Assembly: GCA_001799195.1 (NCBI GenBank)
Contig: MGSU01000003.1
Span: 1,647 to 21,157 of the forward strand
DNA length: 19,511 bases
Direction: 5' to 3'
Source: Deltaproteobacteria bacterium RIFOXYA12_FULL_61_11
Lineage (GTDB): Bacteria > Bdellovibrionota_F > JAHFAK01 > YA12-FULL-61-11
The position numbers and the translations under genes were made by a program. The notes beneath the pieces are model-generated. The model did not search any database and was not told the origin of the DNA. It saw only the letters and a list, made by a program, of their open reading frames with translations. Positions 2,601 to 18,074 of the stretch are shown here, piece by piece. Every line of letters starts with the position of its first letter. Position 1 is the first letter of the stretch.

Positions 2601-3185
2601 TCAGTTCTGCCACTCGATGAAGAAGTCGATGGGTTTGAAATCGTCCTTGTCGCCCTTGTCGTCGTCGTCGTAACCGCCACCGTTATCGCCGCCGTTGTCC
2701 CCACCGTTATTCCCACCGTTGTTTCCGCCCTCGTCCCAGGGATCCTCGGGTTCGCTGCCCTTGCCCGGGATGGTCAATTTTTCGACCAGGACGCCTTTTT
2801 CGGTCAGGTACAGCTTGCCACCCTCTGCGATAACCATGAGATTGTTCTCGGATATCTCGAGGTCGAGCGCCTTGCACCCTTCTGGCAGGGTCAGGTGGAG
2901 CCGGAATTCGGTAACCTTCTTCTCCTTGTCGTTGACGAGTTGATAGATCTTCTGGTCTTCGCCCAGGACGAAGGCCATCATCTTGCTGTTGATAGCCAGG
3001 GCCACGGCCTTCACTCCGCCGGGGAGTTGGAAGAAAGGTTTGGGATCCTGAGCTTGTTTTGCCCAGTACAATTTTCCATCATGACCGATCATCATGACGC
3101 CGCTGTTGTTGATTTCGGCAACGCGAGAGGCCTGGGCCTGGAGGCACCATGCCGCGAGCAATACCACGAGAATACGTGCTTTCAT
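2601..3185 (-). CDS. Exported small protein with Gly/Asn/Asp repeat tail, function unknown
   Basis: The 194-aa product starts with a clear signal peptide (MKARILVVLLAAWCLQAQA, cleavage after AQA). A beta-rich body follows, with three repeats of roughly 40 residues (NNSGVMMIGHDGKLYWA, NSKMMAFVLGEDQKIYQL, SENNLMVIAEGGKLYLT) that look like blades of a small propeller-like or WD-type fold. The C-terminal quarter is low complexity: GG-NN/GG-DN units and then a poly-Asp/Lys stretch, ending in FFIEWQN. The start is well supported, since GGAGGAG lies just upstream on the minus strand. The acidic, flexible tail could bind cations or act as a spacer. No enzyme motif is present. The gene converges with the preceding lipoprotein gene (31-bp gap). 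Confidence 0.8.
   Translation of the reverse strand: MKARILVVLLAAWCLQAQASRVAEINNSGVMMIGHDGKLYWAKQAQDPKPFFQLPGGVKAVALAINSKMMAFVLGEDQKIYQLVNDKEKKVTEFRLHLTLPEGCKALDLEISENNLMVIAEGGKLYLTEKGVLVEKLTIPGKGSEPEDPWDEGGNNGGNNGGDNGGDNGGGYDDDDKGDKDDFKPIDFFIEWQN
2677..2736 (-). repeat. 12-bp tandem repeat inside the coding region
   Basis: Four near-identical 12-base units (plus-strand pattern CCnCCGTTrTyn) occupy 2677-2724 and a decayed fifth unit follows to 2736. They encode the GGNN/GGDN peptide units of the exported protein. The unit length is a multiple of three, so gain or loss of units would keep the frame. Confidence 0.8.
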
Positions 3186-3267: not shown

Positions 3268-3284
3268 TTGACACACAGTGTCAA
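3268..3284. promoter_or_regulatory. Perfect 7-bp inverted repeat, operator-like
   Basis: TTGACAC-ACA-GTGTCAA is a perfect dyad of 7+7 bases with a 3-base spacer. It contains a consensus -35 hexamer on both strands, so a bound dimeric repressor would block transcription in either direction. Confidence 0.5.
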
Positions 3285-3295
3285 GCAAGAAGAAT
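3268..3295 (+). promoter_or_regulatory. Possible sigma70-type promoter reading into the inverted-repeat element
   Basis: A consensus TTGACA (3268-3273) is followed after 16 bases by AAGAAT (3290-3295; four of six). The predicted start near 3302 would lie just before the left arm of the inverted repeat at 3311. The -10 is weak, so this is tentative. Confidence 0.35.
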
Positions 3296-3310
3296 CCCAA
3301 GCGGGAACCA

Positions 3311-3498
3311 TTCAGTCTTGGGGTGGATTGAAGGTTGTTCGTCACCACGTTGGGGTGGCACCGACGGGGGTCCCCCACCACGCGCAAGGATGAGCATGGT
3401 GGGGGCGACCGCAAGGATGCGGACCTCCAAGCGACGCGCAGGATGCAGCGGCGTCGGTGTGAGAGGTGACAGGACCCCTCGAACCACCCAAGACTGAA
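3311..3498 (+). ncRNA. Candidate structured RNA or MITE-like element closed by an inverted repeat
   Basis: The arms TTCAGTCTTGGG(G)TGG at 3311-3326 and CCACCCAAGACTGAA at 3484-3498 are inverted complements, with 12 bases perfect, one bulged G and then three more pairs. Weaker complementarity continues inward. Between them are further hairpins: GGGGGTCCCCC near 3366-3376; CCCCACCA near 3373-3380 pairing with TGGTGGGG near 3397-3404; and CCGC-aaggat-GCGG near 3409-3422. The loop word GCAAGGATG or a one-base variant occurs three times (about 3384, 3411 and 3438). I match it to no known RNA family (not RNase P, SRP, tmRNA or 6S). No target-site duplication is obvious. The strand is assigned from the possible promoter upstream. 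Confidence 0.35.
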
Positions 3499-3547
3499 GT
3501 GTTACTCCCAAGCCCTCGGACCTCTCCGATCCGGCCGCAAAATACGC

Positions 3548-3576
3548 TTGACAAGGAGGCTGAATATCCCTACAGT
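3548..3576 (+). promoter_or_regulatory. Predicted sigma70-type promoter for tRNA-Val and probably infC
   Basis: A consensus TTGACA (3548-3553), a 17-base spacer and TACAGT (3571-3576; four of six) place the transcription start near 3583, about 28 bases ahead of the tRNA. No terminator is visible between the tRNA and infC, so the same transcript probably continues into the ribosomal protein operon. Confidence 0.6.
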
Positions 3577-3610
3577 CGCACCTCCGAGCCAGGCACTTGT
3601 GCCGGCACCT

Positions 3611-3684
3611 AGGCACGTAGCTCAGTTGGTTAGAGCACCACCCTGACGCGGTGGGGGTCGTCGGTTCGAATCCGACTGTGCCTA
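3611..3684 (+). tRNA. tRNA-Val (anticodon GAC)
   Basis: All arms fold: acceptor 3611-3617 with 3677-3683 (last pair G-U), D arm 3620-3623/3633-3636, anticodon stem CCACC (3638-3642)/GGTGG (3650-3654) around loop CTGACGC, and T arm GTCGG-TTCGAAT-CCGAC (3660-3676). The anticodon is GAC at 3645-3647. The anticodon stem and variable loop closely resemble enterobacterial tRNA-Val(GAC). Base 73 is A, as in Val tRNAs. The first pair is A-U rather than the usual G-C, and the 3' CCA is not encoded, so it must be added enzymatically. Confidence 0.97.
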
Positions 3685-3753
3685 TTTTCGGGCTGCCGAG
3701 ATTCTTGTGTCGCGGTGACCGGGCAATGTGTGATGGACTGTTGTGGCGTGGTT

Positions 3754-14001: not shown

Positions 14002-14365
14002 GGGTCTCCGGGGATCTAGGGCTGAGTGGGTGTACCAGAGGGGGGGGAGAAATGCAAGGTGTGGACGGACAAATGGACAACACGACCGCCACACCGACGG
14101 CGCCTGCCTCCTGCCTGACAGGCCTGCTTCCTGCGGCCTGCTAGAGGGGTGCGGCCCTGCACCCACCACGCCGCTGGAGGTCGGCATCCCTGCCGCCACC
14201 CCGACGCGTCGAAAAGGACTGACCCTTTTTCCACGTCAATTCTTATTTCGTGCGCGAAGAAGGCCTTGGTAGGTCCTGTTCTCGGAGTAACGCTTCCATG
14301 CTTGCCGTCGAATCGACCCGATGCTACCCTTGCCGGCATAGAAAAGGTGGTGGTGAGGGTGGCGT
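14002..14365. other. 364-bp gap between divergent lepA and lipoprotein genes
   Basis: It must hold the lepA promoter (minus) and that of the lipoprotein gene (plus); I find only weak hexamer matches for either. It contains a G8 run at 14040-14047, a 20-base-period direct repeat at 14102-14134 and a small A/T-armed hairpin at 14211-14231. No coding frame is convincing. Confidence 0.5.
14102..14134 (+). repeat. Short direct repeat, 20-base period
   Basis: GCCTGCCTCCTGC (14102-14114) recurs as GCCTGCTTCCTGC (14122-14134), with 12 of 13 bases identical. The bases between the copies (CTGACAG) complete a small GCCT/AGGC hairpin. Confidence 0.5.
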
Positions 14366-15936: not shown

Positions 15937-16922
15937 TCAGCGTCCGGTCAGTAGGTCGACCAGGACCGGATCCAGAGCAGGCCAGGGCGGGACGAAGAAG
16001 CTCGAGTTGTGCCAGAGCAGTACGAAATGGCCGCGGTATTTGCGCACTGTGGTCACCAGCTCGTCGAGACGTTTCCGCACCTGCTCGGGGGTGAGTTGCT
16101 GGTAGGTCACGAAACTCGCGTCCATAGCCAGGAGGGGCAGCTCGCGGAGCTGGAGGCGCCTTCTCATTCCGAGGTCGAACACCAGGAATTCGTGACAGGT
16201 TCCGCAACGGAACCCCTCGTGTCCGGATATCCGAGCGAGAGATCGAACTCCATCTCGTGATCATCCCAGATACACCAGGTGGTTGGGACCTCGAAACGCA
16301 GCGAGTGTTGCCGGCCACGGCGCAGGTGGTTGGGCGCGAATTCCTGGAACCTTCGGAATTCGGCTGCCCAACGCTCGGGCTGGTTATAGGTGACATAGCT
16401 GAGGTGAAAGCCCAGGAGGTGTCCACGACGATTGATCGCGGCGATTGCGCGGGGCAAGGTCCACGAGGTCAGGTTGTACCCGGCATCGAGCCGGGTCGAG
16501 CCGCCGACCATGAAGAAGAACTGCGCACGAACCCCAATGGACTCGGCAAGATCCATCAAGCGATCGAAGCTGTCGTAGGGGTCGGGGTGGTCGAGCACGA
16601 AGGTCGCCGCGCCGCGGGCCGCGGTGTATAGGAAGGCCCGGGCCGACCGGGTGTGCCGCAGCACGCTCAGCGAGGTTCTTGCCACCCTGCGGCGACGCGG
16701 CCAGAGCTGCAACTGATCTACATCACAGGTCAATTCCCAACAGAAGGCATGCTCGCGTCGGGGGGCGGTATAGCCGAGGTGCACCAGCATGGTCCAGAGC
16801 AGTTCGACGTACTCATCGACCACGGGACGGTGCAGGAACCCCTGGCGCAGGGCTACGCTCGAGGCTGCCGGGAAGCGCCCGTGTTCATCACGCTCCCCTG
16901 GCAGATGTTCTTCCCAGCGAGC
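15937..16922 (-). pseudogene. Polysaccharide deacetylase family protein, broken (5' end lost, internal frameshift)
   Basis: Read on the minus strand from about 16920, the frame resembles the long NodB-type deacetylases of bacterial surface polysaccharide loci: RWEEHLPGERDEHGRFPA, GFLHRPVVDEYVELLW, the metal-binding TCDVD (D146 and D148 counted from the open frame at 17159), DPYDSFDRLMDLAE, RAQFFFMVGG and the second motif GFHLSYVTYN (His252). Then RQHSLRFEVPTTW and FDLSLGYPDTRG appear, and the reading frame changes. At the C-run at 16213-16216 one base seems missing. The continuation FRCGTCHEFLVFDLGMRRRLQLRELPLLAMD, which the family expects, lies in a different frame and runs to the stop at 15937 (WHNSSFF near the end). 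The first part of the gene is replaced by IS1380 sequence. It is therefore almost certainly non-functional, unless the frameshift is a homopolymer sequencing error; the missing N-terminus would remain. Confidence 0.8.
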
Positions 16923-18074
16923 TGTCCGGCCCAGGCCAAGGATTTCTTGTACCGGTTCCATCAGGACGAGCAGGGGAAGCGACTGACGAAGAAGCAGGAC
17001 ACGACGTTGTCGGTGGTCGGTCACGCAACGATCCGGCCGGAAGGTCCGGGTCTCGCCTGCTTGGCCGAGCTGCTCGTCGAGCTCGTCCGAAAGCTCCAGG
17101 CCATCCATCAGAAGCAACTGGCGACCTTGGACGTGGATGCCACGATCATCGCGGCGCACAAACAGACTGCGCTCAAGGCCTACGAAGGGACCGTGGGGTA
17201 TCAGCCGCAGCTCGCGTACTGGGCCGAGCAGGGGGTGTTCGTGGTGGACCAGTTTCGGGACGGCAACGTGAATGCAGAGTACAAGATCAAAGAGTTCTTT
17301 GAACGAGCCTTCGCCGTCCTGCCGGGTTCTGTGACCCGGCGCAGACTACGGGGAGACAGCGCACTCTACAACGAGGACGCGTTGACCTGGTGCGACGACT
17401 TCGGCATCGAGTTCGCTGTGTCGGCTGACATGACCCAGCCGCTCCGACACAGCTGTCGAGCTATCCCCGAGCATGCATGGCACACGTATACCACGGTGCG
17501 GGGGACACGCGTGGAGGACCTGACCGAAGAACGACAGTGGGCCGAGGTCGTTGACTTCATACCCGGGTGGCAACGCAACCGTAGCAAACATGGTCAGGCC
17601 TTTCGTTATCTTGCCATTCGGGTCTGTCCGCGGCAGCGAGGCCTGTTCCTCGCGGACCAAGAACAGTGGCGCACCTTTGCCGTGGTCACCAACATGGACT
17701 GGGACGGCGAGCGCCTCTTGCGCTGGCAACGAGAGAAGCAAGGCACCGTGGAACACGGCCACGACATCCTGAAAAATGAGCTCGCCGCCGGCACCATACC
17801 CTGCGGCATCTTCGGATCCAACGCCGCCTGGTTCCGGCTCAACGTCATCGTGCATGCCCTGGATACCTTCCTCAAGGTCACGACGCTCCCCAAGGAACTG
17901 GCCACGGCCAAGCCCAAGCGCTTGCGCTTCCTCTTCTACACCATCGCTGGCTTGGTGGTCCGCCATGCTCGTTCCATCGTCCTCCAGCTCGAGGCCAACC
18001 TGCCCTCCTCGCACTGGATCGCCAATGCCCGCCACGCCCTGCTCGAGCTCGCTCCGAGGTTGGCCATGACGTAG
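16923..18074 (+). pseudogene. IS1380-family transposase, N-terminally truncated
   Basis: About 384 codons from CPAQAKDFLYRFHQDEQ to the stop at 18072-18074 match the IS1380 DDE transposase. LATLDVDATIIAAHK holds the first catalytic Asp (codons near 17130-17138), YEGTVGYQPQLAYWAEQ and FRDGNVNAEY follow, and LRGDSALYNED holds the second Asp (17355). VEHGHDILKNELAAGTIPCG probably holds the catalytic Glu (near 17751), and PKRLRFLFYTIAGLVVRHAR is close to the end. Roughly the first 90-110 residues of a full-length protein are missing. The frame stays open 5' to a GTG at 16653 only because it runs antisense through the broken deacetylase gene; residues 1-90 of that 473-codon frame are not transposase. 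I expect no activity. Confidence 0.88.

Follow-up and report, generated by a model that had tools for sequence, protein, structure and literature searches.

The window analysed here, a stretch of 19,511 nucleotides from the genome of Deltaproteobacteria bacterium RIFOXYA12_FULL_61_11, contains a short segment full of hairpins and closed by a long-range inverted repeat. An earlier note, made from sequence alone, had offered two possibilities for it, a structured non-coding RNA and a mobile element that is not autonomous, which raises the question of which of the two it is. The mobile half of this proposal is established by the copies, inverted repeats, duplications and an empty site described below. 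The structured-RNA half has received some support, from covariation in a conserved core, from a + strand asymmetry of wobble pairs and from recurrence of the core in distant genomes, although production of an RNA has not been shown.

Boundaries and fold of the element

The element is found on the + strand and is 203 bp long, comprising a base MITE and one 54-bp module. An exact 8-bp repeat, TCCCAAGC, is present in both flanks, and the element is therefore assigned to positions 3303–3505; alignment with 12 other copies also underlies these limits. The two copies of this target-site duplication (3295–3302 and 3506–3513, no strand) contain no mismatches. The left terminal inverted repeat (3303–3322, + strand) has the family consensus GTAWNNNTTCAGTCTTGGG, and the right one (3487–3505, − strand) reads GTAACACTTCAGTCTTGGG on that strand with no mismatches to the consensus. 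The words TTCAGTCTTGGG (3311–3322) and CCCAAGACTGAA (3487–3498) are exact reverse complements.

Folding of the segment is far more stable than that of shuffled sequences, with z-scores of −4.0 on the + strand, where none of 200 shuffles equalled it, and −5.5 on the − strand. The loop word GCAAGGATG is found at 3383 and 3411, and GCAGGATGC at 3438 is its one-base deletion variant. The first GCAAGGATG word is accounted for by a conserved motif at the apex of a core helix (3381–3396), discussed below. A search of the window region against Rfam gave the neighbouring tRNA-Val as its sole match.

Most of what the earlier note had claimed is thus upheld, namely the perfectly complementary end words, the richness in hairpins, the loop word occurring three times with a one-base variant included, and the lack of a match to any known RNA class over the element or its core. 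The proposed element of about 190 bp, closed at 3311–3498, is real but longer, as its duplication-bounded ends indicate. The candidate TTGACA promoter placed just upstream required correction and is considered with the surroundings of the element.

A dispersed family in the source genome

The source genome assembly is fragmented (4.64 Mb in 342 contigs, 87% complete). A DNA search with the element found at least 13 copies of 87–100% identity in its own genome, on 13 contigs, and no copy in 58 other genomes. With a covariance model built for the short form, at least 89 places were detected at E ≤ 1e-3; these copy numbers are lower bounds. The search for dispersed copies, which had been proposed as a check, thus points to a mobile element. 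The terminal repeat GTAWNNNTTCAGTCTTGGG occurs at 173 sites in the genome, as opposed to 18 for a reversed control pattern, and several copies lie at contig ends, the pattern of collapsed repeats.

A perfect 8-bp flanking duplication was observed in 18 of 61 complete copies, and one with at most one mismatch in 32 of 61; the chance expectations, with a boundary search of ±5 bp allowed, are estimated at 0.2% and 5%, respectively. The absence of a clean duplication from about half of the copies is expected if these are old, and equally if other mechanisms operate. An empty paralogous site was also identified: once one of the duplications is taken out, the joined flanks of copy C160:4296 give a gapless alignment of 209 bp, at 85% identity, to C34:4399–4607.

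No autonomous partner with the same ends was seen among about 100 of the 173 terminal-repeat sites in this fragmented assembly, and only truncated or paired short copies came up when a complete insertion sequence bounded by these ends was sought. A transposase with a DDE_Tnp_1_4 domain, which is taken to be IS1380-like, is encoded in the window at 16653–18074 (+ strand), and the terminal repeat of the MITE was not seen around it. Elsewhere, locus L286 (G000:C53) contains an IS66 with tnpA, tnpB and a truncated tnpC, near an element of a second repeat family with tandem 54-bp modules. This second family is represented in the window at about 14095–14215 (− strand), upstream of lepA, and carries related twin-hairpin modules (GGCAGGGATGCC with ACCTCC, and GGTGGGTGCAGGGCCGCACCC). 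Further copies are found in L141, L143, L176, L177, L193 and L205, some of them with tandem modules in 54-bp steps.

The conserved folded core

Among the copies the centre is more conserved than the ends. The core (3352–3478, + strand), defined by covariation and by homology across lineages, has three helices in the frame GGGUGRC...RCAGGACCC with strong covariation. Helix P1 pairs GGGGT (3352–3356) with ACCCC (3474–3478), P2 pairs CACC (3359–3362) with GGTG (3465–3468), and P3 pairs CCCCCACCA (3372–3380) with TGGTGGGGG (3397–3405), all on the + strand. P2 and P3 are separated by the joint GACGGGGGT (3363–3371, + strand), and P3 is capped by the apex motif CGCGCA...TGAGCA (3381–3396, + strand), whose columns are invariant and which recurs in distant genomes. 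RNAalifold returned nested helices with one covarying G-C/A-U pair.

Plain pattern matching, which uses no structure model, counted 61 wobble cells in hairpin 1 on the + strand against 1 on the − strand. Fifty-five of the 61 fall in one column pair, which probably reflects a single ancestral change, and without that pair 6 remain on the + strand as opposed to 1 on the − strand. The asymmetry points to selection on the folded + strand. A role of the core as RNA or single-stranded DNA is probable, an inference that rests on the covariation and the wobble asymmetry without transcript data.

The core could not be assigned to any described class. Searches of Rfam at gathering thresholds and at permissive E-values (3–5) gave no core match beyond weak, chance-level ones, a pattern scan of IMG/VR gave no match, and no described repeat emerged when the literature was searched for the core word. 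Sequence words had brought T-box, attC/integron, 6S and known riboswitches into consideration, but these candidates were set aside for lack of a model match. In addition, the T-box-like GGGTGGCACC is paired in the element, and the AAC/GTT ends are not constant.

Genomic placement and surroundings

Each of the 61 copies whose gene context is usable is intergenic, and none interrupts a called gene. Thirty-one have divergent neighbours, 26 have co-directional ones and 1 has convergent ones, while for 3 one neighbour could not be called; the shares expected from the lengths of empty spacers on the same contigs are 32%, 55% and 13%, respectively. The copies avoid convergent gene ends. The median distance from a copy to a gene start is 106 bp, and only 2% of copies, compared with 25% in the null, lie less than 50 bp from one. 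Copies occur in both orientations. The gene calls behind these figures are hexamer-based estimates made in this analysis.

In the window, tRNA-Val(GAC) at 3610–3685 lies directly downstream of the element and is followed by infC, rpmI and rplT. The TTGACA that had been proposed as part of an upstream promoter (3268–3273) is outside the element, within a separate palindrome, TTGACACACAGTGTCAA (3268–3284), located upstream of a − strand gene (2601–3185); the palindrome may be an operator or part of a promoter. A better candidate, TTGACA-17-TACAGT, starts at 3549, downstream of the element, and would serve the tRNA-Val gene at 3610.

Proximity to gene starts might suggest a cis-regulatory RNA leader, or a riboswitch-like element, duplicated upstream of genes, and both the median distance of 106 bp and the avoidance of convergent ends speak for it. 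However, the element in the window is located 44 bp upstream of the likely tRNA-Val promoter, outside the transcript, the copies take both orientations, 31 of them lie between divergent genes, and Rfam gives no match even at E-values of 3–5. This explanation is considered very improbable.

Size ladder and twin-hairpin modules

The lengths of complete copies cluster at 146–149, 200–204 and 251–256 bp, a ladder of about 148, 202 and 256 bp, and the steps are of 54 bp because whole twin-hairpin modules are added. The module in the window (3406–3459, + strand) is placed between P3 and the 3′ strand of P2 and is absent from the ~148-bp copies; a second module, where present, is found within hairpin 1 or after GGGGTGGC.

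Each module contains two hairpins. Hairpin a, CCGC[AAGGAT]GCGG (3409–3422, + strand), has the hexaloop ANGGAN. All 55 modules keep this loop, its second base being A, G or T, and the stem pairs of the hairpin covary over these modules (GC, CG and TA at one position, CG and GC at the next). Hairpin b, CGACGC[GCAGGATGC]AGCGGCGTCG (3432–3456, + strand), keeps the CAGGATG loop GCAGGATGC in most of the 55. The pattern used to gather the modules tolerated a single mismatch to GCANGGATGC, and the constancy of the loop, but not the covariation of the stem, is therefore partly built in.

These loops raise the possibility of a mobile CsrA sponge, in which a transcribed element would sequester CsrA through CANGGAUG and CAGGAUG hairpins in the manner of CsrB/RsmZ, the MITE spreading a regulatory RNA or CsrA sites. 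Published CsrA targets include hexaloop hairpins with RUACARGGAUGU and repeats of CAGGA(U/A/C)G, and dual-site bridging is best at more than 18 nt (PMC7652899). In line with this, each module has two GGA sites 23 nt apart, hairpins a and b fit the published consensus, the ANGGAN hexaloop is universal among the modules (with the reservation just given) and CAGGATG is present in most second hairpins, on stems that covary. The source genome also contains a canonical csrA gene.

On the other hand, the ~148-bp copies have no module, no internal promoter was identified in the element, and half of the copies are flanked by divergent genes, whose transcripts would not reach them. Only 31 of 72 copies have AAGGAT as the loop of hairpin 1, and the GCGCA...GAGCA frame of that loop is accounted for by the conserved apex motif; for these reasons the CsrA interpretation, first applied to all three loops, was narrowed, hairpin 1 being variable at GGA. 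No literature linking CsrA and MITEs was found in the searches. The sponge remains a rather unlikely possibility, in which both binding and transcription are hypothetical.

The core in a distant lineage

A covariance model built from the source genome only (R1) gave one match elsewhere, in genome G132, with an E-value of 7e-5. G132 and its relatives are called distant here in the sense that, by kinship label, they share only the domain with the source genome. The G132 copy has GGGTGACGC, GGGGGACCCCC, GGGGGTGAG and GCGGCAGGACCC in common with the source-genome core, and compensatory changes are present. A core-only model (R2) found the core in 18 of 289 relatives of G132, representing 17 genera, mostly at 2–13 copies each. 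R1, which contains no G132 sequence, recovers all 29 distant loci tested, most of them below 1e-5 and the best at 4e-14. The motif CGCGCA...GAGCA at the P3 apex is found in the source genome and at six distant loci and is missing from the G132 copy. The covariance model and search for homologues, proposed beforehand as a check, thus revealed both covariation and core homologues in a distant lineage.

The covariation score of the distant set is 0.45, compared with 0.14 for shuffles and at most 0.053 for slid controls, and its wobbles number 20 on the + strand and 0 on the − strand. This alignment was fitted to the model, and part of the covariation and of the asymmetry is therefore expected.

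In its distant form the core, of 78–130 nt, often lies within perfect palindromic arms of up to about 30 bp that are specific to each locus. The arms measure 27 bp at L317, 25 at L333, 30 at L335 and 26 at L328, where the random maximum is usually 3–7, and other distant copies have shorter or decayed ones. In G165, two cores share 100% identity but their arms only about 40%; within each locus the arms pair. A BLAST search with the whole L333 region cut the repeat exactly at the core (query 803–880), the arms being unique, and at L332 the left arm takes in the 3′ end of the upstream gene. In the related genome G170 the orthologous recR-mglA spacer contains neither core nor palindrome and only partly resembles the left arm; this hints that the right arm may be a new inverted copy, although the comparison is merely suggestive. 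In G161, weaker second cores are found at L339 (1753–1836) and L326 (729–812), within about 250 bp of the first and in the opposite orientation.

The distant form suggests another explanation, that of a small mobile repeat in which the core itself enters or makes palindromes, through snap-back during replication or the integration of a single strand, and the source-genome copies retain a fossil arm in their TTCAGTCTTGGG ends. The repeat unit ending exactly at the core of L333, the identical cores with unlike and yet perfectly pairing arms, and the spacer of the related genome without core or palindrome are consistent with it. SMR-A of Haloquadratum, moreover, inserts in palindromes without duplications (PMC3119063). 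However, the source-genome copies have conserved ends and direct 8-bp duplications, which are typical of a DDE transposase, and the explanation is held to be unlikely. Literature on snap-back palindromic insertions was not found in the searches.

A bolder reading joins the two forms into an undescribed class of mobile structured elements. The core would spread in at least two distant bacterial lineages, each insertion being framed by a new perfect palindrome derived from flanking DNA, probably through snap-back copying from a folded RNA or single strand, and in the source genome a transposase system would have co-opted it and CsrA-type hairpin modules would have been attached to it. This reading is judged possible but less likely than not.

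Proposed mechanism and related elements

The preferred explanation is that the element is a MITE, a non-autonomous DNA transposon moved in trans, which carries a captured folded core as cargo. Dispersal, inverted ends, 8-bp duplications, the empty site, the conserved fold, the homologous cores elsewhere and their unique arms there are shown; the explanation as a whole is likely, with the transposase, the capture of the core and its role as RNA or single-stranded DNA inferred. A transposase supplied in trans, itself inferred, would recognise the GTAW...TTCAGTCTTGGG ends and insert the element mostly upstream of genes, creating the 8-bp target duplication. The core belongs to a group of small, mobile, palindromic elements whose spread extends to the distant lineage; it is inferred to be the older mobile unit, captured in the source genome between ends recognised by the transposase, and the 54-bp twin-hairpin modules would have been added after this capture.

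IS66 family elements have GTAA-type tips and 8-bp duplications. Both features are present in the element and suggest that the putative transposase may be IS66-like, but the one host IS66 that was traced has the ends GTAAGCGCGTAACC, which match those of the element at the tip only.

Among described elements, MITEs in general and the SMR-A repeats of Haloquadratum walsbyi come closest, the latter on the basis of form alone. Like MITEs, the element is short and non-coding, with inverted ends, direct target duplications and many dispersed intergenic copies; unlike them, it has a conserved folded core in common with a distant lineage, length steps of whole 54-bp modules and a transposase that is unidentified. 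SMR-A repeats are about 110 bp long and inserted within palindromes without duplications, and their mobilisation has been called enigmatic (PMC3119063). They are similar to the distant-lineage form of the core in their prominent inverted ends, many copies, insertion in palindromes and lack of coding capacity. However, they are archaeal and use the palindromes of IS605-type elements, whereas the palindromes around the distant cores are unique to each locus, and the source-genome copies carry 8-bp duplications. In its repeated hairpins, whose loops read CAGGA(U)G and CANGGAUG, the element recalls CsrA-sequestering RNAs of the CsrB/RsmZ type; it is, however, a repeat of mobile DNA for which no transcript has been shown, with a few sites per copy at most. 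REP/BIME and the IS605-derived PATEs are likewise dispersed palindromic intergenic repeats, but the element differs from them in its conserved terminal inverted repeats and direct duplications.

Small mobile repeats without genes are common, and their mode of movement is mostly unknown. Identical, exactly bounded cores within unrelated perfect palindromes make palindrome-making or palindrome-seeking insertion testable, and the presence of the same core within a conventional MITE of another lineage indicates that transposases can capture such units. If the modules bind CsrA, the transposon would distribute binding sites of a global regulator across the genome.
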